From positions 23,123 through 64,434 of the forward strand of contig NZ_RCAA01000019.1 of the NCBI RefSeq assembly GCF_003628475.1: a DNA stretch of 41,312 bases, read 5' to 3'. This document shows positions 1,661 through 17,030 of the stretch, piece after piece. A program made the position numbers and the translations under genes. Under the pieces are notes generated by a model, which was given only the letters and a program-made list of their open reading frames with translations, did no database searches and was not told the origin of the DNA. This DNA comes from Enterobacter sp. R1(2018). Lineage in GTDB: Bacteria; Pseudomonadota; Gammaproteobacteria; Enterobacterales; Enterobacteriaceae. Within the stretch, counting starts at the first letter, position 1; each line of letters opens with the position of its first letter.

Positions 1661-1728
1661 GTACTTTCAGTACGTGTTATTATTGAACCAAATGTCTTCT
1701 TAACGAGCGAAGATCGTACTTATGGTGC
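1661..1728. promoter_or_regulatory. Operator-like repeats at the repressor gene 5' end
   Basis: Three related elements lie just before the repressor. A perfect inverted repeat GTACTTTCAGTAC is at 1661-1673. TATTGAACCAA at 1681-1691 is the exact reverse complement of TTGGTTCAATA at 2591-2601. ATCGTACTTATGGTGC at 1713-1728 spans the start codon and matches 14 of 16 bases of ATCGTACTTTTGGTTC at 2558-2573. Sharing the same words with the promoter downstream of the repressor suggests that the repressor binds both places and represses itself. A TATTAT at 1678-1683 could be the repressor's -10. The binding itself is inferred. Confidence 0.5.
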
Positions 1729-2471
1729 AGAGAGAACAATTACGTGAAGCCTTCTCCCGTCGGCTGGCGCAGGCCTGCGCGCAGGCGAATCTGGATGAAT
1801 TCGGCAGAGGAATGGCCATTGCCCGCGCTTTAGGCGTCTCTTCGAAGGCGGTCAGCAAGTGGCTGAATGCCGAGTCTATCCCACGGCAGGATAAGATGTA
1901 TGAGCTTGCCGCCTTTTTAGGCGCCGATGTTTTATGGCTGCAGCACGGTAACGAAGGCGTCTTCTCCGAAGAGAGCAGGGAGAGCCAGCATGCCGCCTCG
2001 CTTAGCGAGGCGCCTGTGTTTTACCTGCCGCAGGCGGAGGCGGGGTTTCGTATCGACGTGCTGGATATTGAAGCGAGCGCAGGGCCCGGCAGCCTGATCT
2101 CAAGCGACGTCACCGAGACGATCAACCATATTGTTTATGACAGTCAGGAAGCGCTGGAGCTGTTCGGCCATCGGCCCGCCTCAAGCATTAAGGTGATTAC
2201 CGTCACCGGCGATAGCATGTCCGGCACCATTGAACTGGGCGATTACATCTTTGTTGATATCGCTAAGGACTATTTCCACGGCGACGGCATTTACGTTTTC
2301 CTCTACAAGGGACAGCTTCTGGTTAAGCGCCTGCAAATGACGCACGACAGCCTGCTGGTGCGTTCAGATAACCCTAAATATGCTGACTGGAAGATTTGCG
2401 AAGACAACGAGCAGCATCTCAAAATTATTGGTCGCGTGATGTATAGCCACTCGATCAAGCGCCACGCCTGA
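1722..2471 (+). CDS. CI-type self-cleaving repressor (HTH plus S24 peptidase)
   Basis: This 249-residue protein has an N-terminal helix-turn-helix of the phage CI class (about residues 26-67, with ALGVSSKAVSKWLNAE as the recognition region). Its C-terminal half is a LexA/UmuD-like S24 peptidase. The catalytic Ser165 sits in TGDSM and Lys202 in LLVKRLQ, and a likely cleavage dipeptide Ala120-Gly121 lies in ASAGPG. RecA filaments formed after DNA damage would be expected to trigger self-cleavage and release the tail and lysis operon. It is the first gene of the island and reads in the same direction as the operon, but is separated from it by a 268-bp control region. No integrase or Cro-like gene is beside it. 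The domain call is strong; control of the tail genes is inferred. Confidence 0.9.
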   Translation: MVQREQLREAFSRRLAQACAQANLDEFGRGMAIARALGVSSKAVSKWLNAESIPRQDKMYELAAFLGADVLWLQHGNEGVFSEESRESQHAASLSEAPVFYLPQAEAGFRIDVLDIEASAGPGSLISSDVTETINHIVYDSQEALELFGHRPASSIKVITVTGDSMSGTIELGDYIFVDIAKDYFHGDGIYVFLYKGQLLVKRLQMTHDSLLVRSDNPKYADWKICEDNEQHLKIIGRVMYSHSIKRHA

Positions 2472-2557
2472 GCCGATTGCCCCGGCCGTGGGGCAATCAG
2501 AACTATTTTTCCTTAATAATCAATCAATAAATAAAAACAGCGTTTTTTTATCTTTAA

Positions 2558-2602
2558 ATCGTACTTTTGGTTCTTGACTGATTTGTACTATTGGTTCAAT
2601 AT
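2558..2602 (+). promoter_or_regulatory. Tailocin operon promoter with two operator repeats
   Basis: Two direct repeats, GTACTTTTGGTTC at 2561-2573 and GTACTATTGGTTC at 2585-2597, sit 24 bp apart, 12 of 13 bases identical. Between them, TTGACT at 2574-2579 makes a good -35. With 17 bp spacing the -10 would be CAATAT at 2597-2602, which is weak. One repeat abuts the -35 and the other fills the spacer, the geometry expected for steric repression. The same words recur at the repressor gene. The repeats are plain in the sequence; their function is inferred. Confidence 0.55.
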
Positions 2603-2657
2603 CAATTCATCAGCACGACAAAGCGCTCAGCGATGAGCCAACGCTCTTTAACGCCTG

Positions 2658-2720
2658 GCCCTGAAAAAGGGCAATACACCCAGCAATAAGCTTTGGGATA
2701 TCAAAAAGATATCGCCAAAG
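2658..2720 (+). other. Operon leader with two hairpins
   Basis: Downstream of the predicted promoter, the 5' leader can form a small hairpin, GCCCT/AGGGC (2658-2672). A larger one pairs CTTTGG-GATATC (2691-2702) with GATATC-G-CCAAAG (2708-2720) across an A5 loop and ends ten bases before the Shine-Dalgarno of the first gene. Neither is followed by a T-tract, so they are not intrinsic terminators. They could protect the mRNA or control translation of the first gene. Confidence 0.4.
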
Positions 2721-2739
2721 TTGATTGACAGGAGGATGT

Positions 2740-3075
2740 ATGGACGCACAGGCCCGTCGCCGAAAACGCCGCGAGGCGAAACAGGCGGCCTGGAAAGCAG
2801 CGAACCCTCTGTTAGTGGGCATCCGCTTTATACCGCAGCCGCAGCCCGTAATAAGACTAAGCCGCAAACCTGAAGACCGAATCGCTAAAGCGCTGGAGGT
2901 GGTCAATGAGTATGGTCTGCAAATCCAGCAAAACGTGCAGCGCTATCAACGCTTACGCCAGCTTGAGCAACAAAAAAACAGCCTTATCTACCGCGCTCAA
3001 CCAAAGAATACCTCGGGATTACCCGATGCCCACGGCAAAGAAAAACGTCATGGGAAATCTATCCCTCTGATCTAG
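2740..3075 (+). CDS. Small basic protein, first gene of the tail operon (unknown function)
   Basis: I do not recognise this 111-residue protein. The start at 2740 is chosen because a strong AGGAGG lies four bases upstream. The N-terminus is very basic (MDAQARRRKRREAKQ), followed by a Pro/Gln-rich stretch (IPQPQPV) and a predicted helical segment (about residues 45-80, with ALEVVNEYGLQIQQNVQRYQ). The C-terminus is again Lys/Arg-rich. It has no signal peptide or membrane segment. Being first in the operon and basic, it could be a nucleic-acid-binding regulator such as an antiterminator or late activator, but nothing in the sequence proves this. Confidence 0.6.
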   Translation: MDAQARRRKRREAKQAAWKAANPLLVGIRFIPQPQPVIRLSRKPEDRIAKALEVVNEYGLQIQQNVQRYQRLRQLEQQKNSLIYRAQPKNTSGLPDAHGKEKRHGKSIPLI

Positions 3076-3133
3076 AAAACCTCGCTGAACAGACGTTACC
3101 TCGGCTACAGCGCCGCAGGTGAGAGAGACTCGC

Positions 3134-3436
3134 ATGAACGACCAACCAGGAAATATTGTCACGCAGAGCTTTGCGTGGCTGGCGGCATTGACCGCCGGTC
3201 TGGGTATCACGACACAGGATATGGTCTACATGATATTCGGCCTGATAAGCGTGGCTATTTCAGTGGCTTCCTTTATTAACGGACGCATGGATGCGCACCG
3301 CTTAAGAAAGGAGGATGAGAAGCGTACGCGGCTTCTTCAGGATTACCTTGAGACGCTGCAAACCAAAACGATAGCCAAATCCGACCTGCCCGCAACGGCG
3401 AAAGCCCTTCGCGAGGCGCTTAAACAGGCTGGTGTT
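3134..3436 (+). CDS. Probable holin (two membrane segments)
   Basis: This protein of about 100 residues has two hydrophobic segments close together near the N-terminus, about residues 8-25 (VTQSFAWLAALTAGLGI) and 30-48 (MVYMIFGLISVAISVASFI). A charged, coiled C-terminal tail follows (RLRKEDEKRTRLLQDYLETLQ). This is the layout of class II holins, and it resembles the HP1-type phage holins I know. The ATG at 3134 follows GAGAGA with suitable spacing, in preference to one five codons upstream. The reading frame runs on to a stop at 3445. Its place ahead of endolysin and spanin genes supports a role in opening the inner membrane. The exact family is moderately certain. Confidence 0.7.
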
Positions 3437-3459
3437 CGCCACTAGCCGTAAGCCTGTCC

Positions 3460-3491
3460 TCTTCTGAAATAGCCGCAGGGATTTCGGAAGA
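3460..3491 (+). other. Hairpin between holin and lipoprotein genes
   Basis: TCTTCTGAAAT at 3460-3470 pairs with ATTTCGGAAGA at 3481-3491 (11 bp with one G-U pair) across a ten-base loop. No T-tract follows, so it is not a normal terminator. It ends 18 bases before the ATG of the tiny lipoprotein gene. Confidence 0.4.
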
Positions 3492-3509
3492 TAACTAACG
3501 AGGAACTAC

Positions 3510-3584
3510 ATGAAGTTAAAACTTTTTTTACTGGCTGTGCTTTGTTCTAACCTGGCCGGCTGCACCACGCTCTACTATCGCTAA
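3510..3584 (+). CDS. 24-residue lipoprotein (lysis-cassette microprotein)
   Basis: This short ORF is a credible gene. A GAGGAA Shine-Dalgarno sits about seven bases before the ATG. The product MKLKLFLLAVLCSNLAGC followed by TTLYYR is a textbook lipoprotein signal peptide with lipobox LAGC at residues 15-18. After signal peptidase II cleavage the mature lipopeptide would be only seven residues, CTTLYYR. The stop lies five bases before the next lipoprotein gene, which begins with a similar MKL...LAGC leader, so the two may be translationally coupled. Size and position recall colicin-type lysis lipoproteins, but the family is not identified. It could help release particles or only serve as a coupling leader. 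Confidence 0.6.
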   Translation: MKLKLFLLAVLCSNLAGCTTLYYR

Positions 3585-3589
3585 CAACG

Positions 3590-4087
3590 ATGAAATTACT
3601 TATTCCGCTATTAACTTTTGCATTAGCCGGCTGCATTAACGTTTATGGGCCGGTGAAAACCGCAGGCCAAAGCGATGCCTCTTCCGACCAGCAGGGGCCA
3701 GGTATGGGAGACGGTGTTTCAACGACGAAGGTTGGCAACAGAAAGCCAGAAGAGCTGTTGCATGCAGTTGAACTTTACTATCAGCAGAAAGGGCTGGCAC
3801 CCAGCGTACAAGATTCAGCCACGGGTATTGTGGCCGCGTCTGGCTCCGATGATGAGCCAGCAGGCTTGTACCTTGATTGTTATGTGCTGCCGCAAACCCA
3901 GAATATCCAGCGGCGGTTCCGCATTGTGACTCAGGTCTGGCGCGCAGACGAAGGCAGCAATATCTCCGTCAATGTGACCGGTGTGGCCGGGCTGGTTGCC
4001 GCAGACGGCAACGATAAGGTTAAACCTGCCGAGTGTAAGAGCACCGGCCTGTTTGAAAAGGACCTTTTCGAACGGCTTCGCAAGTAG
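3590..4087 (+). CDS. Predicted lipoprotein of the lysis cassette (unknown function)
   Basis: This 165-residue protein starts with a lipoprotein signal peptide, MKLLIPLLTFALAGC, with lipobox LAGC and Cys15 as the lipidated residue. A Ser/Gly/Asp-rich linker follows (about 20-45). The globular part (about 50-165) contains GNRKPEELLHAVELYYQQKG and two further cysteines. I do not recognise the domain. No clear Shine-Dalgarno precedes the ATG, and the upstream 24-codon gene ends five bases away, which points to coupled translation. It lies between holin and endolysin, so an envelope role during lysis is possible. It is also possible that it is a cargo gene unrelated to lysis. Confidence 0.75.
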   Translation: MKLLIPLLTFALAGCINVYGPVKTAGQSDASSDQQGPGMGDGVSTTKVGNRKPEELLHAVELYYQQKGLAPSVQDSATGIVAASGSDDEPAGLYLDCYVLPQTQNIQRRFRIVTQVWRADEGSNISVNVTGVAGLVAADGNDKVKPAECKSTGLFEKDLFERLRK

Positions 4088-4233
4088 ACGTAAAGGTTCC
4101 AGACACTCAATTTCATTCCAAATCTTTCAAAACCACGCCAGCGCCCGGCTCCCGTATGTCCAGCATATTTCCGGAAAGGTAACCGGAGATACGGACGTTG
4201 ACGCACTGCGCGCAGAAAACAGAGAGGTAGCTA

Positions 4234-4725
4234 ATGGCAATGTCTCCCGGACTGAGAAACACCTTACTTGGCCTGTCAGGGGCCAGCGCGTTAACGCTGG
4301 CTGGCGCCATGATCCCCGAGCTGGAGGGAGTGCGCTACACGCCTTACTACGATGTCGCAGATGTGCTTACCGTTTGTTATGGCCATACCGGCAAAGACAT
4401 TATTCCCGGAAGGAAATACACCCCGGAAGAGTGCCGGGCGATGCTAGGCAAAGATTTGCAGCCTTTTGCCAGCGCGGTGGCGCGAGCCGTCACCGTTCCC
4501 GCAGATGCATACCAGAAAGCGGCGTTAATCACTTTTAGCTATAACGTCGGTATTTCAGCCTTTCAGCGTTCAGCCGTATTGCGCGATCTCAACGCCGGAC
4601 ATTTTGACAGGGCATGCGAGGGCCTGAAAAAGTGGATTTGGGCAGGAGGGAAGCAGTGGAAAGGCTTGATGAACCGGCGCGAAATTGAGTATGAGGTTTG
4701 CCGCTGGAACAGGAATGCCTCATGA
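4234..4725 (+). CDS. Phage-type lysozyme, SAR endolysin (GH24)
   Basis: This 163-residue GH24 muramidase cuts the glycan strands of peptidoglycan. The catalytic triad has phage 21 spacing: Glu31 (in ELEG), Asp40 (YYDVAD) and Thr46 (LTVCYGHTG). Residues 10-27 form a weakly hydrophobic Gly/Ala/Ser-rich segment (LLGLSGASALTLAGAMI), typical of a signal-anchor-release domain that tethers the inactive enzyme until the membrane is depolarised. A GAGAGG ribosome site precedes the ATG. The stop overlaps the Rz start (ATGA). This is the release enzyme of the tailocin. Confidence 0.93.
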   Translation: MAMSPGLRNTLLGLSGASALTLAGAMIPELEGVRYTPYYDVADVLTVCYGHTGKDIIPGRKYTPEECRAMLGKDLQPFASAVARAVTVPADAYQKAALITFSYNVGISAFQRSAVLRDLNAGHFDRACEGLKKWIWAGGKQWKGLMNRREIEYEVCRWNRNAS

Positions 4726-5213
4726 ACATGCGGTTTTTATTCGCCCTTTTGGTATGCCTCTCGCTCGCCTTCAGTACTTATTACTTTCAGGCGCGCTATG
4801 CCGCACAAAAAGTGCTGACCGCGCACGCTGAAAAGGAACTTGCCGCGCAGAGCAGGCTGCTTGCGGACCTGCAACATCGCCAACGGGATGTCGCAGCCCT
4901 GGATTCCAGATACACACAGGAACTCGCCGATGCACAACGCACGATTGAGGATTTGCAGCATGATGTGGCTGGTGGCGCTAGGCGGCTGCAAATCGCCGCC
5001 CGTTGCCCAAACGTGCCTGTCGCCACCGGCACCGCCCGCGTGGATGATGCTGCCCGCGCCAGACCTACTGACGCCGCTGAGCGAAATTATTTCTCTCTCA
5101 GAAACCGCATCGCCCTCGCCACAAAACAAATAGCCGGGCTGCAGGACTATATCCGCCAGCAATGCCTGCGCAGCCCCGACCGCTTTATTACCACGGAGAC
5201 CGCAGATGAATGA
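4722..5213 (+). CDS. Rz-like spanin, inner-membrane subunit
   Basis: This 163-residue protein has one N-terminal membrane segment (FLFALLVCLSLAFSTYYF, about residues 4-21). A long charged helix follows (about 30-90, with AHAEKELAAQSRLLADLQ), typical of Rz i-spanins. Together with the Rz1 lipoprotein encoded inside it, Rz spans the periplasm and fuses the inner and outer membranes in the last step of lysis. I chose the ATG overlapping the lysozyme stop (ATGA). The 3' end overlaps the tail terminator gene by eight bases, joining the lysis and tail modules in one transcript. Confidence 0.85.
   Translation: MNMRFLFALLVCLSLAFSTYYFQARYAAQKVLTAHAEKELAAQSRLLADLQHRQRDVAALDSRYTQELADAQRTIEDLQHDVAGGARRLQIAARCPNVPVATGTARVDDAARARPTDAAERNYFSLRNRIALATKQIAGLQDYIRQQCLRSPDRFITTETADE
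4930..5133 (+). CDS. Rz1-like spanin, outer-membrane lipoprotein (embedded in Rz)
   Basis: This gene lies wholly inside Rz in another frame, the classic Rz/Rz1 arrangement. The 67-residue product starts MHNARLRICSMMWLVALGGC. It has a basic n-region, a hydrophobic core and a lipobox ending at Cys20. The mature lipoprotein is about 48 residues and proline-rich (SPPAPPAW, PAPDLLTP), as expected of Rz1 o-spanins. A later start at 4960 (MMWLVALGGC) is possible but would remove the basic n-region. No separate promoter is needed. Confidence 0.8.
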   Translation: MHNARLRICSMMWLVALGGCKSPPVAQTCLSPPAPPAWMMLPAPDLLTPLSEIISLSETASPSPQNK

Positions 5214-5745
5214 CTCAACCCACTCGGGTTATCTCACGCCGGTCAATTCGCCACCCGCCTATGACGAATTGCTGGAAGAGGCGTTAATCCACTGGATTAG
5301 CAGCCTGGCAGGACTACCGGGCGATGCCATTGTGCCGCGCTGGACAGAACCGCCCCCGCAAACCCCCGCCGTGGAGCAGACTCGCTGCGAGTTTGATCTT
5401 TCTATCGGCCATGATGCTAACCCTATGTTCGTCCCCGTATCTCAATACGGCGACGAGCTCAGACAAACTGAAACGCTGGAGGTGAATTGCACATTTTACG
5501 GACCCGACATGCAGGCCATTGCGACGCAGTTTCGCGATGGATTATATGTCGCGCAAAACAATACCGAGCTTAATAACCTGGGTATGACGGTCAAAACCTG
5601 CGGGGCGCTGACCCCTTCGGCTGACCTTATCAACAATCAGTGGCTACGCCGCTACAACCTGACCGTTACGCTCCGCCGCCGCGTGGTGCGTGAATACGGC
5701 ATCCAATCCCTCCTTTCAGGATCGGTTAACTTCTTCGGAGAATAA
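5206..5745 (+). CDS. Tail terminator-like protein (gp12/LIC_12616-type)
   Basis: This 179-residue protein looks like the phage neck or tail terminator family (LIC_12616 / gp12-like). An early helix-strand region contains EEALIHWISSLAGLPGDAIVPRW. A middle part follows with CEFDLSIG and LEVNCTFYGPDMQAIATQFRDG, and then the C-terminal RRYNLTVTLRRRVVREYGIQSL. Tail terminators cap the growing tube and sheath and set their final length. With no head genes present, this would be the top cap of a free tail particle. It is the first structural gene and overlaps Rz. The family call is from memory of sequence style and position, so it is moderate. Confidence 0.7.
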   Translation: MNDSTHSGYLTPVNSPPAYDELLEEALIHWISSLAGLPGDAIVPRWTEPPPQTPAVEQTRCEFDLSIGHDANPMFVPVSQYGDELRQTETLEVNCTFYGPDMQAIATQFRDGLYVAQNNTELNNLGMTVKTCGALTPSADLINNQWLRRYNLTVTLRRRVVREYGIQSLLSGSVNFFGE

Positions 5746-5748
5746 AAT

Positions 5749-7230
5749 ATGTCACAGGGATTACCTGTCTCTAACATCGTCAACGTGACGGTGAGCATGG
5801 CTGCGCGCGCGGCCCAGTCCCGTAACTATGGCGCCTTGCTGGTCGTAGGGGCAAGCGACGTTATCGATGCCCATGAACGTATGCGCGTCTATTCCGGCAT
5901 CAGCGGCGTTGCGGCAGACTTTGGCGTGGACGCGCCGGAATACAAAGCGGCAAGCCTTTACTACCAGCAGTCTCCTCAGCCGGTGGATCTGTACATCGGC
6001 CGCTGGGTAAAAACCGAAGCTGCCGCAAAGTTACGCGGAGCTATCCTTACCGCGAATCAGCAGGCGATGAGTAACTTTACGGTGGTAACGGACGGTGCGA
6101 TGAGCATCGTGCTGGATGGCAAAGAGAGCCTAATTACGGAAATCGATCTCAGCGCCGAAACCAATCTTAATGGCGTTGCCGGACGTATTCAGGATGCCCT
6201 GGCCGGCAGCACTGTCGAATGGGATGCCACAAGCGGCCGCTTCAGCGTTCGTTCAATTACACCCGGCGCCGGTTCCGCCGTGGGCTATGCAGATGCCGCT
6301 CCGGAAGGGACCGATCTTTCTTCCCTGCTGGGGTTAACCGAATCCGCAGGCGCAACGCCGATTGCCGGGCAGGCGAGCGAGACCATCGAGCAGTGCGTAT
6401 CGGCGCTGTCGAGCCATTCAACCGACTGGTACGGTCTGGTTATCGCGGATAGCGGCCTGAGCGATGAAGACGTGCTTGCCGTTGCCGCGGTAATTGAAGC
6501 CGATGGCGTATCTCGTATCTACGGGCATACCACTCAGGCAACCAGCGCGCTGGATGCGGACGTCACTACCGACATTCTCAGCCAGCTGAAAGCGGCAAAA
6601 TATGCCCGCACCTTTAGCCACTATTCCAGCGCCAGCCCCTATGCCGCCGCTTCGCTCTTTGGCCGCGCCTTTACCGTTAACTTTAACGGCAATAACACCA
6701 CTATCACCCTGAAGTTCAAGCAAGAACCGGGTATCGTCGCGGAGACCCTGACCCAAAGCCAGGCCAATGCGCTGCAGGGTAAAAACGCTAACGTCTTTGT
6801 GAACTACAACAACGATACCGCCATTATCCAGGAAGGCGTGATGTCCAACGGCGACTTTATCGATGAGCGTCACGGCCTCGACTGGCTGCAAAACTACGTG
6901 CAAACCAACCTCTATAACCTGCTGTACACCAGCACCACAAAAATCCCGCAGACCGACGCGGGGGTAACCCGTCTGTTAAGCAACGTTGAGCAGTCGATGA
7001 ACCAGGCGGTCACCAACGGTCTGGTCGCGCCGGGTATCTGGAACGGCGGTGAAATTGGCCAGCTGTCCGCAGGCGACACGCTCACCAAAGGTTACTACGT
7101 CTACGCCCCGGCGGTGGCCACGCAGGCGCAGTCCGACCGTGAAGCGCGCAAAGCCCCGGTTATTCAGGTGGCGTGCAAACTGGCTGGTGCCGTGCACTTC
7201 GCCGATGTTGAAATCAATGTAGTTCGTTAA
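5749..7230 (+). CDS. Contractile tail sheath protein (DUF3383 family)
   Basis: This 493-residue protein is the sheath that contracts to drive the tube through the target envelope. It shows the N-terminal [28 protein letters not shown], a middle region with [27 protein letters not shown], and a conserved-looking [35 protein letters not shown]-type core (about residues 320-355). The C-terminal part includes [19 protein letters not shown] and a final strand rich in valine. I place it in the DUF3383 phage sheath-like family. It lies directly before the tube gene, the usual order. Its presence shows that the particle is contractile (R-type). Confidence 0.88.
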
Positions 7231-7240
7231 GGAGAAATTT

Positions 7241-7681
7241 ATGAGCGCATATTCTTTTATGGATGTAACGGCATCTTTTGCGGGCCCGACCGGAACCATC
7301 GATCTGGGCGCGGGTTCAGCCAACGGTGAGGAAGGCATCAAGGTTGAAATGAACGTGGTGAAGAACACCATGACAGAAAGTATCGACGGCGAAGTGATGC
7401 ACAGCCTCAATCCGAGCAAGTCGGGCAAAATTACCGTCTCTCTGCTCAAAAGCTCTCCGGTCAATAAAAAGCTTTCGCTGGCCTATAACGCACAGACGCT
7501 CTCTTCTGCGACATGGGGAAGCAACGTTATTGTTATCCGCAATAGCGTTTCAGGTGACGTAGTCACCGCTCGCTCCGTTGCTTTCCAGAAGCTGCCGGAT
7601 AACGTCAACGGCAAAGAGGGCGGCACCCTGGCCTGGGTATTTGACTGCGGCAAAATCGATCAGGTTCTGGGAGTGTTCTAA
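7241..7681 (+). CDS. Tail tube protein (DUF3277-type)
   Basis: This 146-residue protein forms the inner tube. It has the compact beta-rich pattern of phage tubes: MSAYSFMDVTASFAGPTGTIDLG, then EGIKVEMNVVKNTMTESIDGE, SLNPSKSGKITVSLLKSSPVN, and the C-terminal GTLAWVFDCGKIDQVLG. This matches the DUF3277 phage structural family found after DUF3383 sheaths. A strong AAGGAG precedes the start, fitting a product needed in many copies. Confidence 0.85.
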   Translation: MSAYSFMDVTASFAGPTGTIDLGAGSANGEEGIKVEMNVVKNTMTESIDGEVMHSLNPSKSGKITVSLLKSSPVNKKLSLAYNAQTLSSATWGSNVIVIRNSVSGDVVTARSVAFQKLPDNVNGKEGGTLAWVFDCGKIDQVLGVF

Positions 7682-7684
7682 GCC

Positions 7685-8110
7685 ATGGAAATCACAATCA
7701 AAGAGATAGATTACCGCATTGGTAAGCTTGGCGTATTCGAGCAGCTGAAAGTCTCCAGAAAACTGTTGCCCGTCCTGGCCGGTATGGTGGGTGATTTCCG
7801 CCGCCTGCAAACGGCTGACGCTGAAGAGCAAGGTGTCAGCGCCCTGGAATCAGTTCTGCCGAAAATCGCTAAAACGCTTGCCGATATGAGTGAAGAAGAC
7901 TGCCAGTCAATAATCTTTCCCTGCCTGAGCGTGGTGGCGCGCCGCCATATGAAAGGCTGGGTACCGGTATTTAGCCAGGGCAGCCTGGCATTCGATGATA
8001 TCGATCTGCTGACCCTGTTGCAGCTGGTGGCCCGGGTGGTGGCCGATTCGCTGGGAAATTTTTTGCAAGAACTCCCCGGCGACCTGACGCAGGACCCGGC
8101 AGCAGCCTGA
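7685..8110 (+). CDS. Tail assembly chaperone
   Basis: This 141-residue, mostly helical protein lies between tube and tape measure, where tail assembly chaperones sit. It has IKEIDYRIGKLGVFEQLKVSRKLLPVL near the start, then a helical region with EEDCQSIIFPCLSVVARR, and DIDLLTLLQLVARVVADSLGNFL before the end. Such proteins coat the tape measure during assembly, as lambda gpG does. A heptamer A-AAT-TTT at 8056-8062, in the zero frame, could allow a -1 shift, and the -1 frame stays open to 8178. The ORF that follows is unusual (see 8107-8300). Function is assigned by position and fold style. Confidence 0.72.
   Translation: MEITIKEIDYRIGKLGVFEQLKVSRKLLPVLAGMVGDFRRLQTADAEEQGVSALESVLPKIAKTLADMSEEDCQSIIFPCLSVVARRHMKGWVPVFSQGSLAFDDIDLLTLLQLVARVVADSLGNFLQELPGDLTQDPAAA
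8056..8062 (+). other. Possible -1 frameshift heptamer in the chaperone gene
   Basis: A AAT TTT is of the X-XXY-YYZ slippery type and is in register with the chaperone codons. Slippage would give a product continuing in the -1 frame to the stop at 8176-8178, through the strong hairpin at 8124-8156. The gap to that hairpin (about 60 bases) is longer than usual for a stimulatory structure, so the site is only a candidate. Confidence 0.25.
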
Positions 8111-8300
8111 CGCTTGATACCCTGCCGGGCGGAGAAGATTACATTCTCCGCCCGGCCCGGCGGAGGTTTTCGGGCTGAACTGGCAGGATCTGAAAAGCGG
8201 CGCGGTGGATCTCTACGACATCGCGCTGATGAACGATTACCTGGACATGCGGGCCGATAACAAGGCCCGCATCGCACGCTGGAGAGAGGAAAATGAGTGA
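8107..8300 (+). pseudogene. Tail accessory ORF split over two frames (GT-extension-like)
   Basis: Between chaperone and tape measure, one frame reads TLPGGEDYILRPA (from CTG at 8107, in a CTGA overlap with the chaperone stop). It ends at TGA 8176-8178. The next frame reads EVFGLNWQDLKSG, then AVDLYDIALMNDYLDMRADN, and ends in a stop at 8298-8300, overlapping the tape-measure start by eight bases. The two parts look like halves of one small tail protein of the kind that follows many chaperones (GEDW-LLRP ... LKDG ... DIA-MN patterns, from memory). One missing base between about 8150 and 8163 would rejoin them. Alternatively the second half is made alone from CTG 8175, eight bases after GGAGG. 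No ATG, GTG or TTG start gives either full segment. It could be a real mutation, a sequencing error in GC-rich DNA, or recoding. Confidence 0.5.
8124..8156 (+). other. Perfect 13-bp hairpin after the chaperone gene
   Basis: GCCGGGCGGAGAA (8124-8136) pairs perfectly with TTCTCCGCCCGGC (8144-8156) across a seven-base loop, GATTACA. It has no T-tract, so it is not an intrinsic terminator. It lies inside the split ORF at 8107-8300 and six bases before a GGAGG. It could tune tape-measure translation, stimulate frameshifting or mark an mRNA-processing point. Confidence 0.6.
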
Positions 8301-10095
8301 TAGCAAGCAGCTCAGCAAACTTATCTCGATGGACGTCCACCTAAGAAATATTGAACTTATCCTGAGAAAATTGCAGGACGAGCAGGACGACGTTCTTGAA
8401 AAAATAGCTGGCGCTTTTGAAAAGGCGACGAATTTGCTGTCTCCTGGCGCTGATAACGCACAGCGGAGAACGTCAGGGGATGAGTCTGCACAAGGCGTTG
8501 GAAAAATGGTTGGTGAACTGGGCAAATTCTCAAGCCTCTTTGTTCAGGGGGCGGCAAAATTTGTCGGTTTCGTCACCGATTCTGCGGGCAGTATTGAAAA
8601 AGATGCCCAGGCAGCGAAAGACAGCGATGCCAGCGTCGGCGGCTACAAAGCGATTGAATATGCGGCGAGCCAAACAGGCGTTGAGGCGGAATCTATCAGC
8701 GAGTCGCTAAAAAACGTGGCTGCTTTCTGGAAAAACGACGTGGCGGGTGAGGCGATGCTCAACAATATGGGCATTCAAACCCGGCTGAAGGATGGAAGCC
8801 AGGCCGATAACGCGGACGTTTTTACCCAGGTAGGCCAGTCATTAAGTACCCTGTCGCCTGACGCTGCGAAGCAGTTTTCCGGGGCGCTGGGTATTGATGA
8901 AAAAACTTTCGGCGCCATGAAGCAGGGCATGGCCCAATACACCGAGCAGTACCATCAGATGGTGGTCAGCACGGGTGTTGACGCGGAACGGGCGGCAAGC
9001 CAGTCGGCGATGTTTATGACGTCGATGCGTAAAATGACAGCCGTTTCAGATCTTATTCGCGATAAAGTCGGCTCGGGGCTTGCGGCGGGGCTAATCGGCC
9101 CCATCGAATCTATTACAGCGACGATCCTTGCTAACTTCCCAAATATTGAAACCACGGTTAACCAGGTCATCAACGTAATAAGCGGTTTTGCCACGCTTTT
9201 TGCGAATGCTATTAACGGCACCATTGGCTGGGTGTCGGCGTTGATTAATTTATGGCAGCAGCTTGATTCCAGCACGCAGATTGTAATTGGCGCCGTTATG
9301 GCGCTGGTTGCGGCATGGTATGCATTAAGTCTGGCGATTGGACTATCACCGGTTGGCATTATTCTGACGCTGGTGTCCGTTATCGGCCTGGCATATGACG
9401 AATTCACTAAATGGAAGTCGGGCGGAGAAACATTCTTCAACTGGGGGAAATTGGGGGAATCCGTCAGCAAAGCCTCCGCAGCTATCAGCAGGTTAATCAT
9501 CACCGTCAAAAATCTGGTCCTTCAGTTCTGGGAAATGCTGAAAATCGATTTTGGTTCGTGGTCAATCGACAAGATTTTCGAGGGGCTCATAGGCGGATTT
9601 GAACAGCTTGGCGCCATGCTGCAGAAGGTGGGTAAGCTAATCAAGGCGCTGAAAGATGGCGACTGGTCAGAGGCCGCGAGCATTGGTAAAGAGATGATTA
9701 ACGATGTCAGCAATAGCCCGGTCGGAAAGCTGGTTCAGAAGGGTAAAGATCTGCTGGATGAAGGCATTGATAAAGCTGGCAGCTGGCTTACGGACGGTGA
9801 AAAGAAAGAAACCCGCCGTCCGGATGCTGCCACTTTGTTTCCCCCACAGGCGCTAAATAACCTCGAATCAAATACTCTTATGGGCGGCTACGGTCAGGAT
9901 TATGGGCGCTATGCCTATAATAACGAGCTGAATCAAACCGCTTCGACTACCGTCAATTCCCCGACCATCAATAATGAATCACACATCGTTATTAACGGCG
10001 CGGGCGATCCGCTAACGACGGGAAACACACTCGTCAGCCGCATTACTGATACCTATTCACGAATGGCCCAGCAATATATTCCGGGGATAACGTAA
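8293..10095 (+). CDS. Tape measure protein
   Basis: This 600-residue protein sets tail length and fills the tube. The N-terminal part is coiled and polar (LRNIELILRKLQDEQDDVLEKIAGAFEKA). The centre has strongly hydrophobic stretches (about residues 330-370, with QIVIGAVMALVAAWYALSLAIG and IILTLVSVIGLAYDEF). The end is Asn/Thr-rich (TTVNSPTINNESHIVING). By the usual 0.15 nm per residue, the tail would be about 90 nm long (inference). The gene overlaps its upstream ORF by eight bases, and its stop is at the start of the next gene (TAATG), showing tight coupling. Confidence 0.88.
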   Translation: MSDSKQLSKLISMDVHLRNIELILRKLQDEQDDVLEKIAGAFEKATNLLSPGADNAQRRTSGDESAQGVGKMVGELGKFSSLFVQGAAKFVGFVTDSAGSIEKDAQAAKDSDASVGGYKAIEYAASQTGVEAESISESLKNVAAFWKNDVAGEAMLNNMGIQTRLKDGSQADNADVFTQVGQSLSTLSPDAAKQFSGALGIDEKTFGAMKQGMAQYTEQYHQMVVSTGVDAERAASQSAMFMTSMRKMTAVSDLIRDKVGSGLAAGLIGPIESITATILANFPNIETTVNQVINVISGFATLFANAINGTIGWVSALINLWQQLDSSTQIVIGAVMALVAAWYALSLAIGLSPVGIILTLVSVIGLAYDEFTKWKSGGETFFNWGKLGESVSKASAAISRLIITVKNLVLQFWEMLKIDFGSWSIDKIFEGLIGGFEQLGAMLQKVGKLIKALKDGDWSEAASIGKEMINDVSNSPVGKLVQKGKDLLDEGIDKAGSWLTDGEKKETRRPDAATLFPPQALNNLESNTLMGGYGQDYGRYAYNNELNQTASTTVNSPTINNESHIVINGAGDPLTTGNTLVSRITDTYSRMAQQYIPGIT

Positions 10096-10655
10096 TGGAT
10101 ATACTTTCAGTGCTTCTCCAGCAGCGAACGCGATCTGTTGGCCTTTTAATTCCGGACGTGGTTATTACTGAATCTCATAAAGATGAACTGGAAATTGCCA
10201 CGCATCCCGTAGAGGCAGGTGCGAACATTAGCGATCACGCCTGGAAAAAACCGTCCACGGTAATTATCGACTGTGGCTTTTCTGGCGGCGGAACTTTACT
10301 GGATTTTGCCGCTGTTTCTGATTATGGCCTTGATGTCGGGTTATCCCCGAAAAAGGCTTACGAGAAGATTCTGGATCTGCAAAAACGCTGCGAACTGCTG
10401 GACGTGGTTACCGGCAAGCGGACTTACAGCAATATGCTCATTCAGCAGGTTGATGTGACAAGCAGTAAAGAAAATGAAAGCGTTCTTATCGCTAAACTCA
10501 CGCTAACGGAGGTGTTCCTTTCCAGAACGGAAAGTACAACCGTTGCTGAAAAATCAGCGATGGCCCAGGGCGTTTCAACTTCCGCCATGGTGAATACCGG
10601 TCAAAAAAGCCTGAAGCCTGTTAATAACAGCAGCCTTGCTGTACCCAATAGCTAA
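10095..10655 (+). CDS. Dit-like baseplate/tail protein
   Basis: This 186-residue protein follows the tape measure and looks like the Dit-like N-terminal domain family of myophage baseplates. Recognisable parts are LIPDVVITESHKDELEIATHPVE near residues 18-40, the ISDHAWKKPSTVIIDCGFSGG segment, and later KRCELLDVVTGKRTYSNMLIQQVDV and VLIAKLTLTEVFLSRTES. This AWKKP...D arrangement is characteristic of such proteins as I know them. The C-terminal 35 residues are low-complexity. It likely joins the tube end to the baseplate hub. Confidence 0.72.
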   Translation: MDILSVLLQQRTRSVGLLIPDVVITESHKDELEIATHPVEAGANISDHAWKKPSTVIIDCGFSGGGTLLDFAAVSDYGLDVGLSPKKAYEKILDLQKRCELLDVVTGKRTYSNMLIQQVDVTSSKENESVLIAKLTLTEVFLSRTESTTVAEKSAMAQGVSTSAMVNTGQKSLKPVNNSSLAVPNS

Positions 10656-10668
10656 TAAGGAGGCAGGA

Positions 10669-10977
10669 ATGAATATTCAGGAAATTCCTCTTAGCGCAGA
10701 CAATCAGGTCTTCACAATTCAACTGGGCGATAATCAGCTTCGCCTGCGGCTTATATTCCGTGACGAAGCGGGCTGGATATTGGATGTCATGGCAGTAGAT
10801 TCCACGCCAATAATCAGCGGCATACCGCTGGTCACCGATATCAATCTTCTTGCTCCTTATTCTCATCTTGGATTTTCCGACAGCCTGCTTGTCGTTAGCG
10901 ACGATCGCGCACAGTTTTACCCGACGAAGACGAACCTTGGTTTTCAAAGCCACCTCTATTTCGTCACGGATAATTAG
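10669..10977 (+). CDS. Small baseplate protein (Pam3_gp18/DUF6983-like)
   Basis: This 102-residue protein has MNIQEIPLSADNQVFTIQLGDNQLRLRLIFRD at its start and DINLLAPYSHLGF near the middle. This is the pattern of the Pam3_gp18-type baseplate proteins found between Dit-like and hub genes. I chose the ATG at 10669 because AAGGAGG lies just upstream; the longer reading from 10636 has none. It is probably a structural part of the baseplate centre. A 154-bp gap follows it, the largest within the tail genes. Confidence 0.75.
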   Translation: MNIQEIPLSADNQVFTIQLGDNQLRLRLIFRDEAGWILDVMAVDSTPIISGIPLVTDINLLAPYSHLGFSDSLLVVSDDRAQFYPTKTNLGFQSHLYFVTDN

Positions 10978-11131
10978 CCGTCCGGGAGCTAACACCGTTA
11001 GTTTAAGTTTGTGATACCTGAGCGACCATCGGGTTGGGCTTCTCTACGGGAATCAAATCCCGTTGTTTCCCTTCTTTCATCAGCTTAAGTGAATGCTGTT
11101 AGTCCGGGATCGGCTTTTTTATGGAGCTACT
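10978..11131 (+). other. 154-bp non-coding gap in the tail operon with hairpins
   Basis: No gene is visible here. ACGGGA and TCCCGT around 11056-11074 can form a six-bp hairpin with an ATCAAA loop. AGTCCG-GGAT-CGGCT followed by TTTTTT near 11102-11120 looks like a weak intrinsic terminator with a one-base bulge. It sits just before the hub gene's Shine-Dalgarno (GGAG). Other junctions in the tail operon are mostly a few bases or overlaps, so this gap stands out. Confidence 0.4.
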
Positions 11132-12205
11132 ATGAGCCAGAACTGGTTACGCCATTTTGAGCTGCAGCTGCTTGATGATAAAGGGCAGGGGATTGCCCTC
11201 AGTGATTTTAAAGTCACGTTCTCAATCGACTGGTTTAAAGGTTCGTCTCCCCGCGCTGCGGAAGTGAAGATTTATAACCTTAAGCCTGACACCGCCCACA
11301 AAATCATGGGAGAAGAGTTTTCTAAAATTCGTCTGATTGCCGGATACGAAGGGCCGCAGACGATTTATTCCGCAGATCGGGTTGGCGTTGAAGTCAGGAT
11401 CAGTCCTGATGAAGATCCCGGGAAAAAATACGATCGTAATTACGGATTGATCTTCAGCGGCGATATTCGCATTGCCATCACGGGGCGAGAGGCCACGCCG
11501 GATACATGGGTTTTAATTCAGGCTATCGACGGACATGAAGCCATAAGTTACGCCACGGTAAGCGCCACCTTATCGAAAGGTCACTCCACCAAAGATCTTT
11601 ACACCGCTCTGTTAAAAAGCCTCGAACCGTTCAGCATTATTAAAGGGGTTGAGCCCGTTTTTCCGCCGACCGAATTTCCTCGTGGAAGGACGCTTCACGG
11701 GAAAGTGACGACCTACCTGGATGAAGTCAAAAAACTCTGTAACGCAGACTGGCAGATCGTTGATGGCAGGCTGGATTTTCTTTCTAAAACTTCGGTAGCC
11801 CATACGGCCATCGAACTCAATAGCCAGTCGGGGTTAATTGGTTTGCCCCAGCGCACGACTAACGCGGGAGTGAATGCGAAGTGTCTTATTAATCCGAATA
11901 TTCGTGTCAATGGCCTGGTGCAGCTCAATCAGTCATCCCTTTATCTTCAGAAGCTTTCAGAGCAGCAGCTTGGCGCCGCAGGTGAGAGGCCTGGGCGCAT
12001 CCAGGCTATTGATAAAAAAGATGACGGTAATCAAACCCTGAATGTTTCAACGCCGCCGGCGAGCATTGCCACCGACGGTATTTATGAAGTGTGCGGCATC
12101 ACAACGAAAGGCGATACGCGCGGCGGGGACTGGTATATGGAGCTAATGTGCCAGGCACGAGGCAGTTCGGATTACACCGAAGAAGCCCGCAAGAAAAAGC
12201 CATGA
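11132..12205 (+). CDS. Baseplate hub protein
   Basis: This 357-residue protein resembles phage baseplate hub proteins of the gp44/gp27 type that cap the tube with a trimeric ring. Visible features are MSQNWLRHFELQLLDD, the early DFKVTFSIDWFKGSSPRAAEVKIYNL (about 24-50, a hub-type motif ending in YNL), LIAGYEG, GLIFSGDIRI (a G-x-I-x-x-G pattern) and the later LCNADWQIVDGRLDFLS. I chose the ATG at 11132 after GGAG over an upstream start inside the gap. The gene is flanked on both sides by hairpin/T-tract elements, suggesting separate control of its amount. Confidence 0.75.
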   Translation: MSQNWLRHFELQLLDDKGQGIALSDFKVTFSIDWFKGSSPRAAEVKIYNLKPDTAHKIMGEEFSKIRLIAGYEGPQTIYSADRVGVEVRISPDEDPGKKYDRNYGLIFSGDIRIAITGREATPDTWVLIQAIDGHEAISYATVSATLSKGHSTKDLYTALLKSLEPFSIIKGVEPVFPPTEFPRGRTLHGKVTTYLDEVKKLCNADWQIVDGRLDFLSKTSVAHTAIELNSQSGLIGLPQRTTNAGVNAKCLINPNIRVNGLVQLNQSSLYLQKLSEQQLGAAGERPGRIQAIDKKDDGNQTLNVSTPPASIATDGIYEVCGITTKGDTRGGDWYMELMCQARGSSDYTEEARKKKP

Positions 12206-12234
12206 CCTTAGCCGTCATCCTAAGCTATTTCCTG

Positions 12235-12256
12235 ACCCGCCCGTTGCGGGTTTTTT
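12235..12256 (+). terminator. Intrinsic terminator inside the tail operon
   Basis: ACCCGC (12235-12240), loop CCGTT, GCGGGT (12246-12251), then a run of T to 12256 form a compact rho-independent terminator. It lies between the hub stop and the spike's GGAGG. Full termination here would cut off the baseplate and fibre genes, so it is probably partial or is overridden by antitermination. Confidence 0.65.
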
Positions 12257-12273
12257 ATTGCCTGGAGGTAATT

Positions 12274-13029
12274 ATGGCACTCACCACACCCGCGCTTAGC
12301 GGCCAGCTTGCCGAGGTTCTGGCCGCGACCACCGCGGCGTTAAGCAACGATTTGCGCGTTGCGCTGCCCGGCATTATTCACTCGTTCGATCCTGAAACGG
12401 TTACCTGCACCGTTGCTCCTGCCATTAAAGGCGCACGGATGGCCAGCGATGGTTCGGTGAACTCGGTCAGCTATCCGCTATTGGTCGATGTTCCCGTTGT
12501 CTTCCCGCGCGGAGGCGGCTGTACGCTTACCTTTCCTGTAGCTTCGGGTGACGAATGTCTGCTGATTTTCGCCGATCGCGCCATCGATTTCTGGTGGCAG
12601 AGCGGCAACACTCAGGAGCCGGTAAATTCCCGACAGCATTCGCTCTCAGATGCGTTCGTTATCCCAGGCCCTCAGTCACAGGTTAAGAAAATCAGTGGGA
12701 TAAGTACGACTGCCGCGCAGCTACGTAGCGATGACGGAGCGGCATTTGTCGAAGTGGCTGCCGCTCATGACATCACATTGATCACGCCCGGCAAACTGAT
12801 GGCAAAAGCCGATGGCGGCATTGAGATCACCTCGCCGACCATCGTGCTAAACGGCTCAGTGACGATCAATGGTCCTCTCAACCAGGGCAAGGGTTCTGCC
12901 GGTGGTGGAGCATCACTGCTTGGACCCGTTACGGTAGATAACGACGTAAGCGCCGGGGGGATAAGTCTGAAGAGGCATACCCATAGCGGCGTGCAAAGCG
13001 GTGGCGGCAACACGGGAGGACCGCAATGA
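12274..13029 (+). CDS. Baseplate central spike (Gp138_N-like)
   Basis: This 251-residue protein is the piercing tip of the tube. The N-terminal part (ALPGIIHSFDPETVTCTVAPAIKG, about 24-50, then VVFPRGGGCTLTFPVASGDECLLIF) fits the Gp138 N-terminal OB-fold of phage spikes. The C-terminal half is a short-strand beta-helix region (ITLITPGKLMAKADGGIEITSPTIVLNGSVTING). It ends in KRHTHSG, whose HxH motif binds an iron ion at the tip of gpV-type spikes, then a Gly-rich tail. The ATG follows GGAGG. The stop overlaps the next start. Confidence 0.82.
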   Translation: MALTTPALSGQLAEVLAATTAALSNDLRVALPGIIHSFDPETVTCTVAPAIKGARMASDGSVNSVSYPLLVDVPVVFPRGGGCTLTFPVASGDECLLIFADRAIDFWWQSGNTQEPVNSRQHSLSDAFVIPGPQSQVKKISGISTTAAQLRSDDGAAFVEVAAAHDITLITPGKLMAKADGGIEITSPTIVLNGSVTINGPLNQGKGSAGGGASLLGPVTVDNDVSAGGISLKRHTHSGVQSGGGNTGGPQ

Positions 13030-13370
13030 AATACAGAAAAGAAATTTCTGGGGATTATTCATTTGGCCGAGGAGATTCAGGCTTTCTTGTCAATTCAGCG
13101 GAAACCGTGGCCCAGGCTGTTAAAACGCGCCTTAACCTCTGGCGCGGTGAATGGTTTCTGGATACCTCAGAAGGAACGCCCTATGTCCAGTCGGTACTCG
13201 GCAAGCAGCCGCCAGAGGTATATACCATGGCCATTAGCGACCGGATCCTTGGCACGCGCGGCGTTAATTCGATAATCGAATTCAATACTAACAATGACGG
13301 CCATGGCCGACGTCTGACTTTTAGCGTCACGATCGACACCGTCTACGGAGAGGTAACAGTTGATGTATGA
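13026..13370 (+). CDS. gp25-like baseplate wedge protein
   Basis: This 114-residue protein has the size and style of the T4 gp25/gpW lysozyme-like wedge family. Features are AETVAQAVKTRLNLWRGEWFLDTSEGTPY (about 26-55), with the LxxxxGEWFxD core, and the C-terminal NSIIEFNTNNDGHGRRLTFSVTIDT. It sits between spike and baseplate J, the conserved place for gp25 in contractile systems. It starts inside the spike's end (ATGA overlap). Confidence 0.78.
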   Translation: MKYRKEISGDYSFGRGDSGFLVNSAETVAQAVKTRLNLWRGEWFLDTSEGTPYVQSVLGKQPPEVYTMAISDRILGTRGVNSIIEFNTNNDGHGRRLTFSVTIDTVYGEVTVDV

Positions 13371-14556
13371 AAACCTAATCGACAGCATGATGCCGACTAT
13401 CAGTCAGGAAGGAATTGGTGCCCCGGATTTTCAGACTATCCTCGACCAATGGAAAATCATTTTTCGGGATATCTACGGAGACGATATTTATATCGAGCCG
13501 GACAGTAAAGATGGCGTACTGCTGTCAATGATTGCCTGGGCTATCCACGGCTGCAACAACGCGACAATTGCTGCTTATAACTCTTTCAGTCCGCAAACGG
13601 GCATGGGCGAAGGGCTCTCACGTAACGTGAAGATCAACGGTATCGCCCGTAAAGTTGCCACCAACTCAACGGTTGATGTGCTGCTCACGGGAAAAGTAGG
13701 CACGGTAATCAAAAATGGCCAGGTACGTGATTTAGCGGGAAACGTTTGGTCGTTGCCGGCGACGGTTTCGTTGGATTTGCACGGCAACGCGACGGTGACC
13801 GCTATTTGCGAAATTCCCGGTGCGGTTAGCGCGTTAGCCGGGGACATTGTCGATATTGCGACGCCGACGCTTGGCTGGCAGAGCGTGGTTAATCTATCGG
13901 CGGCGACGGAAGGTAAGGCGGTGGAAACTGATGCTGAACTGCGTCAGCGGCAAATTCAGTCCGTCGCGCTGCCGTCAAAAACCGTTATTGAAGGGTTACA
14001 GGGCGCGCTGGCTAATCTGCCGGGCGTTGCGCGACTGAAGGTCTTTGACAATGATACCGATACGGAGGACGACAACGGCATTCCGCCACATAGCCTCGCC
14101 GTGGTGGTTGACGGTGGCGATTCAACCGGTATTGCCCGAACCATAGCCCTGAAGCAAACCCCTGGCGTACCGACGAATGGGACGACAACGGAAAATGTGA
14201 CCGATAGCTATGGAAACAGCAAGGCGGTTCATTTTTATCGCCCGACTGACGTTCCGGTTTTTGTTGAAATTAAATTAAAGCCGCTGGTGGGCTATACCAC
14301 GGATATTGGCAACGGCATCAAAGAGTCGGTATCTGATTATATCAACAGGCTTGATATCGGCGATACGCTGTTTCTTTCCAGACTATTTTCTTCTGCATCC
14401 TTGAATAATGCCAGCGGCGGTAATACCTACGATATTTTATCTCTGGAGATTGGCAAATCTGCCGATGCGCTTTCAACTGATAATATTGTGGTGGCATTCA
14501 ATGAGCTGGCAACGTCTTCTGTGGTTAATATCAATATTATTACGGTGACAACATGA
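13363..14556 (+). CDS. Baseplate J-like protein
   Basis: This 397-residue protein is a baseplate wedge component of the gpJ/gp47 (JayE) family. It has the early DFQTILDQWKIIFRDIYGDDIYIEPDS, then DGVLLSMIAWAIHGCNNATIAAYNSFSP (about 45-75), the GxARKxAT segment, and TEGKAVETDAELRQRQIQSVALPS (about 180-205), a family hallmark. I chose the ATG at 13363, nine bases after GGAGAGG, not the TTG one codon before it. The start overlaps the wedge gene and the stop overlaps the next start (ATGA), as expected for parts made in fixed ratio. Confidence 0.88.
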   Translation: MYENLIDSMMPTISQEGIGAPDFQTILDQWKIIFRDIYGDDIYIEPDSKDGVLLSMIAWAIHGCNNATIAAYNSFSPQTGMGEGLSRNVKINGIARKVATNSTVDVLLTGKVGTVIKNGQVRDLAGNVWSLPATVSLDLHGNATVTAICEIPGAVSALAGDIVDIATPTLGWQSVVNLSAATEGKAVETDAELRQRQIQSVALPSKTVIEGLQGALANLPGVARLKVFDNDTDTEDDNGIPPHSLAVVVDGGDSTGIARTIALKQTPGVPTNGTTTENVTDSYGNSKAVHFYRPTDVPVFVEIKLKPLVGYTTDIGNGIKESVSDYINRLDIGDTLFLSRLFSSASLNNASGGNTYDILSLEIGKSADALSTDNIVVAFNELATSSVVNINIITVTT

Positions 14557-15128
14557 GTAACCCCTACAGCGAACTCATTCCCGCCAGTCAACGAGAAGCA
14601 CCAAATTATGCAAAAACGCTCGATGTGCTGACGACGGCTTTTACCACGCAGCAGACCGTTAGCCGTAGCCTGATAAATAATTTCGACCTTGATAAAGCTA
14701 TCGGTGCTCAGCTTGATATTATCGGTAAATGGATTGGCAGCACGAGAAGAATTTTTGCTCCGATAGAGGATTACTTCTTCTCCTTTGATAGCGAAACGCT
14801 TGGCTTTGATTACGGTTATTGGAAAAATCGTTACGACTCGGAGTTTGGTTTTGTTGACCTGGATGACAGTAATTTCCGCACCGTATTACGCGCTAAAATA
14901 GGTGCTAATAACTGGGACGGAACCAATCAAACATTACCCGATATTCTGCAAGGTATTTACCCCAAAAAAGATATTCTGATCTCCTATACCGATAACCAGG
15001 ATATGACGATGACCGTCACCGTTAAAGGTAAGTCGATCTCAACCATCACTAAAGAAATTATTCGGCAAGGCTATCTGGCCATCAAACCAGCCGGGATTAC
15101 CGTTAATTACGAAATTACCGAGGATTAA
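14553..15128 (+). CDS. Baseplate wedge protein (DUF2612)
   Basis: This 191-residue protein matches DUF2612, a phage tail protein found after baseplate J. Features are NYAKTLDVLTTAFTTQQTVSRSLINNFDLD, the GAQLDIIGKWIGSTRRI motif (about residues 51-68), and SNFRTVLRAKIGANNWDGT (about 106-125). In other contractile particles the protein at this position links wedges and anchors fibres. It overlaps baseplate J by four bases and leads directly into the fibre gene. Confidence 0.83.
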   Translation: MSNPYSELIPASQREAPNYAKTLDVLTTAFTTQQTVSRSLINNFDLDKAIGAQLDIIGKWIGSTRRIFAPIEDYFFSFDSETLGFDYGYWKNRYDSEFGFVDLDDSNFRTVLRAKIGANNWDGTNQTLPDILQGIYPKKDILISYTDNQDMTMTVTVKGKSISTITKEIIRQGYLAIKPAGITVNYEITED

Positions 15129-15130
15129 CT

Positions 15131-16606: not shown

Positions 16607-16607
16607 T

Positions 16608-17030
16608 ATGATATATTTTTTCAGTAATCAAGATGGCGGTTTTTACCCAGAGGATACTCTAAAATATTGTAAATCAATAGGTGCATTACCCGATGATTTA
16701 GTAGAAGTATCAGCTGATGAATATGATGAGTTCACAGGCGCAAATCCAGACGGAAAGCTCCCGCGCTATAATAAAAAAATGCTATGGGTTGATGCCCCAC
16801 CAATTCAATATACGCGGGAGCAATTGATTATGCAGGCTCAGCAGAAAAAGACAGCTTTTATGGTCACAGCAAATCAATCTATTGCACCTCTTCAGGATGC
16901 TATTGATTTAGGTATAGCAACCGAGAGAGAGGTTGCATGCCTGCAATTATGGAAAAAATATCGAGTTGAGCTCAACAGGATTGACACTTCTCTTGCCCCT
17001 GATATCGACTGGCCAACTTCCCCAGCATGA
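16608..17030 (+). CDS. Tail fibre assembly chaperone (Tfa-like)
   Basis: This 140-residue protein follows the fibre by one base and resembles caudoviral tail fibre assembly proteins. The N-terminal part is MIYFFSNQDGGFYPEDTLKY, there is a VSADEYDEF segment, and the C-terminal half holds TREQLIMQAQQKKTAFM ... QLWKKYRVELNRIDTSLAPDIDWP, the usual end of the Tfa family. Tfa proteins help fold and trimerise the matching fibre tip. The AT-rich composition of the fibre end continues through most of this gene, so the two probably moved as a pair. It is the last island gene. Confidence 0.87.
   Translation: MIYFFSNQDGGFYPEDTLKYCKSIGALPDDLVEVSADEYDEFTGANPDGKLPRYNKKMLWVDAPPIQYTREQLIMQAQQKKTAFMVTANQSIAPLQDAIDLGIATEREVACLQLWKKYRVELNRIDTSLAPDIDWPTSPA

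Follow-up and report, generated by a model that had tools for sequence, protein, structure and literature searches.

A -1 frameshift extension (DUF6889) predicted for a tail assembly chaperone, and its private five-base break, in an Enterobacter tailocin-like island

What is encoded in the short gap between a tail assembly chaperone (TAC) gene and the tape measure gene of a contractile-tail island in Enterobacter sp. R1(2018)? In the 41,312-nucleotide stretch of DNA that was analysed (the window), 182 bp separate the TAC stop at 8108-8110 from the tape measure gene, and two peptide segments in different frames lie across this gap. Segment A (…LTLDTLPGGEDYILRPARRRFSG) occupies the -1 frame of the TAC gene. 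Segment B (EVFGLNWQDLKSGAVDLYDIALMNDYLDMRADNKARIARWREENE) lies one frame beyond segment A and runs to a TGA at 8298-8300, past the tape-measure ATG at 8293, so that the two reading frames overlap. An earlier note on this DNA had remarked on this overlap and on the lack of a standard start in either segment, and both observations hold: no ATG, GTG or TTG precedes the conserved part of segment A or of segment B in the window. The same note took the two segments for a hidden tail-accessory gene of its own. We are instead highly confident that the gap encodes the C-terminal, T-like domain of a long TAC isoform, which would be reached by a -1 slip of the ribosome, and that the copy in the window is broken by five bases. 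The coordinates of all features are listed in Table 1.

Table 1. Features of the island and of the TAC-tape measure junction (positions in the window)
Feature	Position	Strand	Remarks
Contractile-tail island, headless as judged from its genes	1722..17030	+	between pdxJ-acpS and rpiR/SIS gene
TAC short form (Phage_TAC_15, phrog_1688)	7685..8110	+	PF21822 E 7e-33; phrog_1688 'tail assembly chaperone' E 5.8e-52
Putative -1 slippery site CTG GGA AAT TTT TTG	8051..8065	+	overlapping in-frame heptamers
Heptamers at the slip site	G_GGA_AAT 8053-8059; A_AAT_TTT 8056-8062; T_TTT_TTG 8059-8065	+	
Segment A, the -1 frame extension as the window reads	8062..8178	+	38 residues, the first being the slip-run Phe; stop TGA 8176-8178
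13-bp perfect inverted repeat (predicted RNA hairpin)	8124..8156	+	arms 8124-8136/8144-8156; extra bases at 3' foot
Tandem CCCGG x2	8151..8160	+	five bases more than the four closest aligned copies; breaks -1 frame
Segment B, DUF6889 core of the extension	8163..8300	+	PF21829 E 1.7e-20; phrog_4364 E 2.1e-16; out of frame with segment A
Tape measure protein	8293..10095	+	phrog_2276 E 1.3e-75; ATG overlaps end of segment B

The island carries genes for a CI/S24-type repressor, an antiterminator-like protein, a holin, an endolysin, a spanin and a tail terminator, followed by genes for the sheath, tube, TAC, tape measure, baseplate, fibre and fibre assembly; a stretch at 3590-4087 is of unknown function. 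No terminase or capsid gene was named among the main open reading frames (ORFs) scanned in 1722-17030. Counting against a headless reading, the tail-terminator gene gave one weak match to a portal model (E 1.4e-4). PHROGs also lists the matches of the tube (phrog_280) and of DUF2612 (phrog_587) under 'head and packaging'. The acpS gene, the rpiR gene or both edge the same tail cluster in 11 of 13 stretches from relatives (L267-L279, the two without such an edge being L275 and L279), a setting that would fit a fixed contractile tailocin locus. From its gene content, the element reads as a headless, tailocin-like island. The relatives' tail clusters with such edges span five genus codes.

A DNA search across the bacterial family located the region in 46 of 392 genomes, and four of six genomes of the same genus have a match, the window's own genome being included in both counts. 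Further loci were drawn from E. coli, phage, viral and genome collections, with two of the match lists comprising the best 80 of 555 and the best 80 of 546 matches. Together with the window, 263 loci gave 164 distinct alleles, compared over the TAC gene and the 300 nt that follow its stop, with the window allele counted once. Some of these loci were found with patterns that included slip-site residues or letters, and related alleles are not independent of one another. L020 and L058 were omitted from the allele counts because their stretches were too short; the frame is open in L020 as well.

Among the relatives listed, segments A and B lie in a single frame, -1 to that of the TAC gene, which is unbroken from inside the TAC gene to the overlap with the tape measure gene. 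The two segments thus belong to one polypeptide, as the earlier note had supposed, and this polypeptide is a C-terminal extension of the chaperone. Beyond the TAC stop, the -1 ORF stays open for 179 nt or more in 163 of the 164 alleles and for exactly 188 nt in 121 of them, so that the open -1 frame is a feature of the family. The only early stop is that of the window allele, 68 nt past the TAC stop, and the window copy has therefore either lost the open -1 frame or been misread. The -1 ORF of one allele, L158, runs 299 nt past the TAC stop because this allele is rearranged inside DUF6889. In that locus, contig 24 of Izhakiella australiensis, DUF6889 is cut after ...SVDLAD by an apparent rearrangement and the -1 frame enters other sequence.

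Segment B scores 72.9 bits against DUF6889 (PF21829), above the Pfam gathering score of 23.9. Both segments are also constrained as protein. In the 121 of 164 alleles that have the commonest extension length (1,824 non-independent pairs, with the window, L037 and L003 excluded), third codon positions of the -1 frame take most of the differences, namely, 7,383 of 10,299 in segment A and 29,311 of 38,996 in segment B. Codon change is thus not random in either segment, as it might have been had the earlier note been wrong to regard both as coding.

The order of the genes, in which the chaperone gene, its -1 frame extension and the tape measure gene follow directly on one another, is that of G/GT-type systems. 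As in these, a conserved zero-frame heptamer of the X_XXY_YYZ type lies near the 3' end of the TAC gene: all 164 alleles carry T_TTT_TTN in frame, and GGAAATTTT and A_AAT_TTT are each present in 161 of them. The three exceptional alleles have GGT AGT, GGT GAT or GGC AGT ahead of the T run, with no AAA at that place. As G_GGA_AAT occurs in just 154 of 164 alleles, the T run is the common element. The same conservation is seen in alleles from searches that required no slip-site letters (T run, 136/136; AAATTTT, 133/136) and in those from a query on the DUF6889 side (77/77 for both). In the window TAC gene, the slip-site heptamers are the only in-frame X_XXY_YYZ motifs. The codons at the site are nearly fixed over the 164 unselected alleles: glycine is GGA in 161/164, asparagine is AAT in 161/161, and phenylalanine is TTT in 164/164. 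Elsewhere in 161 of these TAC genes, which were picked by the slip run itself, the same codons account for 121 of 1,223 (GGA), 176 of 411 (AAT) and 357 of 800 (TTT) occurrences. Between the slip site and the TAC stop, not one of the 164 alleles has a stop in the -1 frame; 30 have one in the +1 frame. Recoding had been raised in the earlier note as an alternative to a missing base, and in the form of -1 slippage it is supported by these data, but the site is at 8051-8065, upstream of the interval which that note had indicated.

Folding of the RNA immediately downstream of the slip site revealed no stable structure (mean z of -0.17, with 4 of 70 clusters below -2). Further into the extension, a hairpin has a low minimum free energy (MFE) compared with dinucleotide shuffles (mean z of -2.72; 40 of 70 clusters below -2) and a mildly low one compared with synonymous resampling (mean z of -1.45; 24/70 below -2). 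Against synonymous resampling, the next stretch of the extension is also low (-0.91; 16/69 below -2), and the C-terminal stretch and three stretches of the TAC gene are near 0 (-0.23 to 0.03). In 63 of the 70 cluster representatives (the seven omitted include that of the window), pairing in the hairpin was 0.742, compared with 0.734 under protein-preserving codon permutation, and 14 of 500 permutations reached as high a value; for the PGGE..ILRP subset, 119 of 500 did so, and there was no excess of further pair types (480 of 500 permutations as high). Since pairing is barely above that obtained by codon permutation, we take the hairpin mostly as a by-product of the encoded protein motif. RNA-level selection on the hairpin was accordingly set aside, the pairing being mostly explained by the PGGE..ILRP codons. 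Counted from the first base of the TAC stop, the hairpin begins 16 nt downstream, and it is long in several island alleles. It is very stable in L037 (positions 1926-1986; -43.4 kcal/mol, z of -8.18), and the corresponding values for the stretch in the window are -32.5 kcal/mol and -4.26.

The break in the window copy can be traced to a single change. The metagenomic contig IMGVR_UViG_3300011206_000027 encodes a TAC protein identical to that of the window (L037), and over 9,231 bp (window positions 6385-15615 against L252 on the same contig) the two DNAs are 99.4% identical, with 51 substitutions and a single length difference. That difference consists of five extra bases in the window, which form CCCGGCCCGG at 8151-8160; two aligners place the gap at different spots inside the CCCGG repeat. 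On the metagenomic contig, the extra bases are absent and the -1 frame is intact, and L038, L039 and the same-genus locus L003 (about 82% identity over 3.4 kb) likewise lack the five bases. The CCCGG tandem is absent from the other 163 of the 164 alleles, including those of three other same-genus genomes with a match. As this change is private to the window, its two frames can be accounted for by the conserved -1 shift together with this single change in length. The earlier note had proposed one missing base between about 8150 and 8163; the length change does fall there and its effect on the frame is equivalent, but compared with the four closest copies, the window has five bases too many. The extension in the window is predicted to end in ILRPARRRFSG, 38 residues from the last phenylalanine of the slip run, with the DUF6889 core missing.

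Given the intact copy at 99.4% identity and the sole length difference, the split reads as one recent mutation or sequence error atop a conserved programmed frameshift, that is, as a probable loss of function, or else a base-calling error, in one strain. The alternative of an error in sequencing or assembly at the GC-rich hairpin, in which case the true genome would have an intact -1 extension, is a possibility to which we give appreciable but minority weight. It is compatible with our explanation for the family and touches the window copy alone. It draws on the uniqueness of the length difference, on the position of the extra bases at a 13-bp perfect inverted repeat and on the finding that an exact 24-base pattern with the duplicated form occurs in no viral contig. 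However, tandem duplication of a short unit by a hairpin is a plausible replication-slippage mutation too, and the 3' foot of the repeat is a plausible place for such slippage and equally for an assembly error.

A second alternative concerns the family as a whole. DUF6889 might be a separate small gene with a nonstandard start, CTG at 8107 or 8175, that is coupled to the preceding stop, as the earlier note had also suggested. In the window, both CTG codons do lie in CTGA overlaps and GGAGG is found at 8162-8166; moreover, 23 of the 70 clusters have a usual start codon at or before the conserved LPGG block (most often TTG at its leucine or ATG shortly after the TAC stop), and four of eight records viewed have separate short genes annotated at this place. 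These starts are not shared, though. The codon aligned with CTG 8175 is CTG in only 2, and GGAGG lies just upstream in only 17, of the 155 alleles that could be scored (9 of 164 did not fit the pattern), and 47 of the 70 clusters lack any ATG, GTG or TTG in the -1 frame between the slip site and the leucine of the block. A separate gene would also leave unexplained why the slip run and a stop-free -1 frame are kept inside all 164 TAC genes. With no start conserved, we rejected this reading, with CTG or any other start, as very improbable. We give hardly any credence to a second recoding event (another shift, or a brief jump across the duplicated repeat) by which the window strain would join segments A and B and make the full extension: the segments do adjoin, with a strong hairpin ending at their junction, but the frame of segment A contains no X_XXY_YYZ heptamer between 8060 and 8178, the other 163 alleles stay open past 179 nt with one shift, and the duplication was seen in no other allele or viral contig.

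A C-terminal chaperone extension reached by -1 slippage thus remains our explanation, and it has described counterparts. The tube gene in the window matches the KPP10_Orf10 family, and KPP10 is presumably a relative of phage Adele. The Adele paper argues for a TAC-N/TAC-NC arrangement in Vandenendeviridae and Andersonviridae (PMC12846349), which resembles the present one in its stop-free -1 extension, its T-rich slip motif and a downstream ORF that is routinely annotated as a hypothetical protein. The invariant motif there is GTTTTT, which differs from the run found here. In P2 E/E', as described in PMC3931495, the slip run is T6G, and the extension, which lacks a ribosome binding site, reaches into the following gene. 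The present system resembles this arrangement but differs in having AAA ahead of the T run (161 of 164 alleles). For lambda, PMC5009743 describes a short chaperone, gpG, with a rare -1 extension, gpGT, acting with the tape measure and tail-tube proteins: gpG binds the tape measure, tail-tube subunits are brought in by the rare gpGT, and both are gone by the time the tail is completed. The likeness drawn here is in this arrangement of a short and a long form.

By analogy with lambda, we infer that most ribosomes would read the TAC gene through to its stop and that a minority would slip back by one base on GGAAATTTTTTG near its 3' end, continuing in the -1 frame through DUF6889 to the stop that overlaps the tape measure start. 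Many short chaperones would then coat the tape measure, and a few long ones would recruit tail-tube subunits, if the lambda-like roles of the two forms hold here. In the window, the tandem CCCGG at the foot of the hairpin would send the slipped ribosomes into the wrong frame, so that the extension would end after 38 residues and the DUF6889 core would be lost.

Further precedents are two phages that have the same locus with an intact frame, Klebsiella phage Mulock (MN098327.1) and Burkholderia phage Magia (MT701587.1), for which GenBank lists a 'tape measure chaperone frameshift product'. Their extensions were matched by tblastn with E values of 9e-16 and 2e-7, respectively. Mulock has the same GGAAATTTTTTG run as the window and, unlike the window, an intact frame, and Magia (L265), which is only distantly related, has C_CCT_TTT in frame in place of this run. 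In view of these annotated products and the Adele and P2 precedents, the frameshift mechanism is already known, and as the five extra bases broke a known programmed frameshift in one genome, the case of the window is an ordinary one. The words 'frameshift' and 'chaperone' are both absent from the Mulock genome announcement. In the open-licence literature, we found no paper that names DUF6889 and none on a tailocin with a tail assembly chaperone frameshift, and a search for a tailocin at acpS/pdxJ in Enterobacter returned only one unrelated paper. The link of DUF6889 to the frameshift and its retention in a headless island may therefore be new. With this, DUF6889, a domain of 'unknown function' in Pfam, gains a likely identity as the domain that ends the long isoform of the chaperone, and the data further suggest that a headless tail island has kept the frameshift.

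A frameshift extension also explains why this locus is annotated with gaps or with short fragments. The earlier note had predicted that gene callers would miss the region, and this is borne out by the eight annotated records that we viewed: two have the frameshift product (Mulock and Magia), four have a truncated or separate fragment called as an independent gene, either DUF6889 or hypothetical, and two have nothing (YP3 and SEN34). The RefSeq DUF6889 genes of L032, L033 and L036, which by their coordinates encode 32, 27 and 50 aa, start inside the frameshift extension and are probably misannotated fragments of it.
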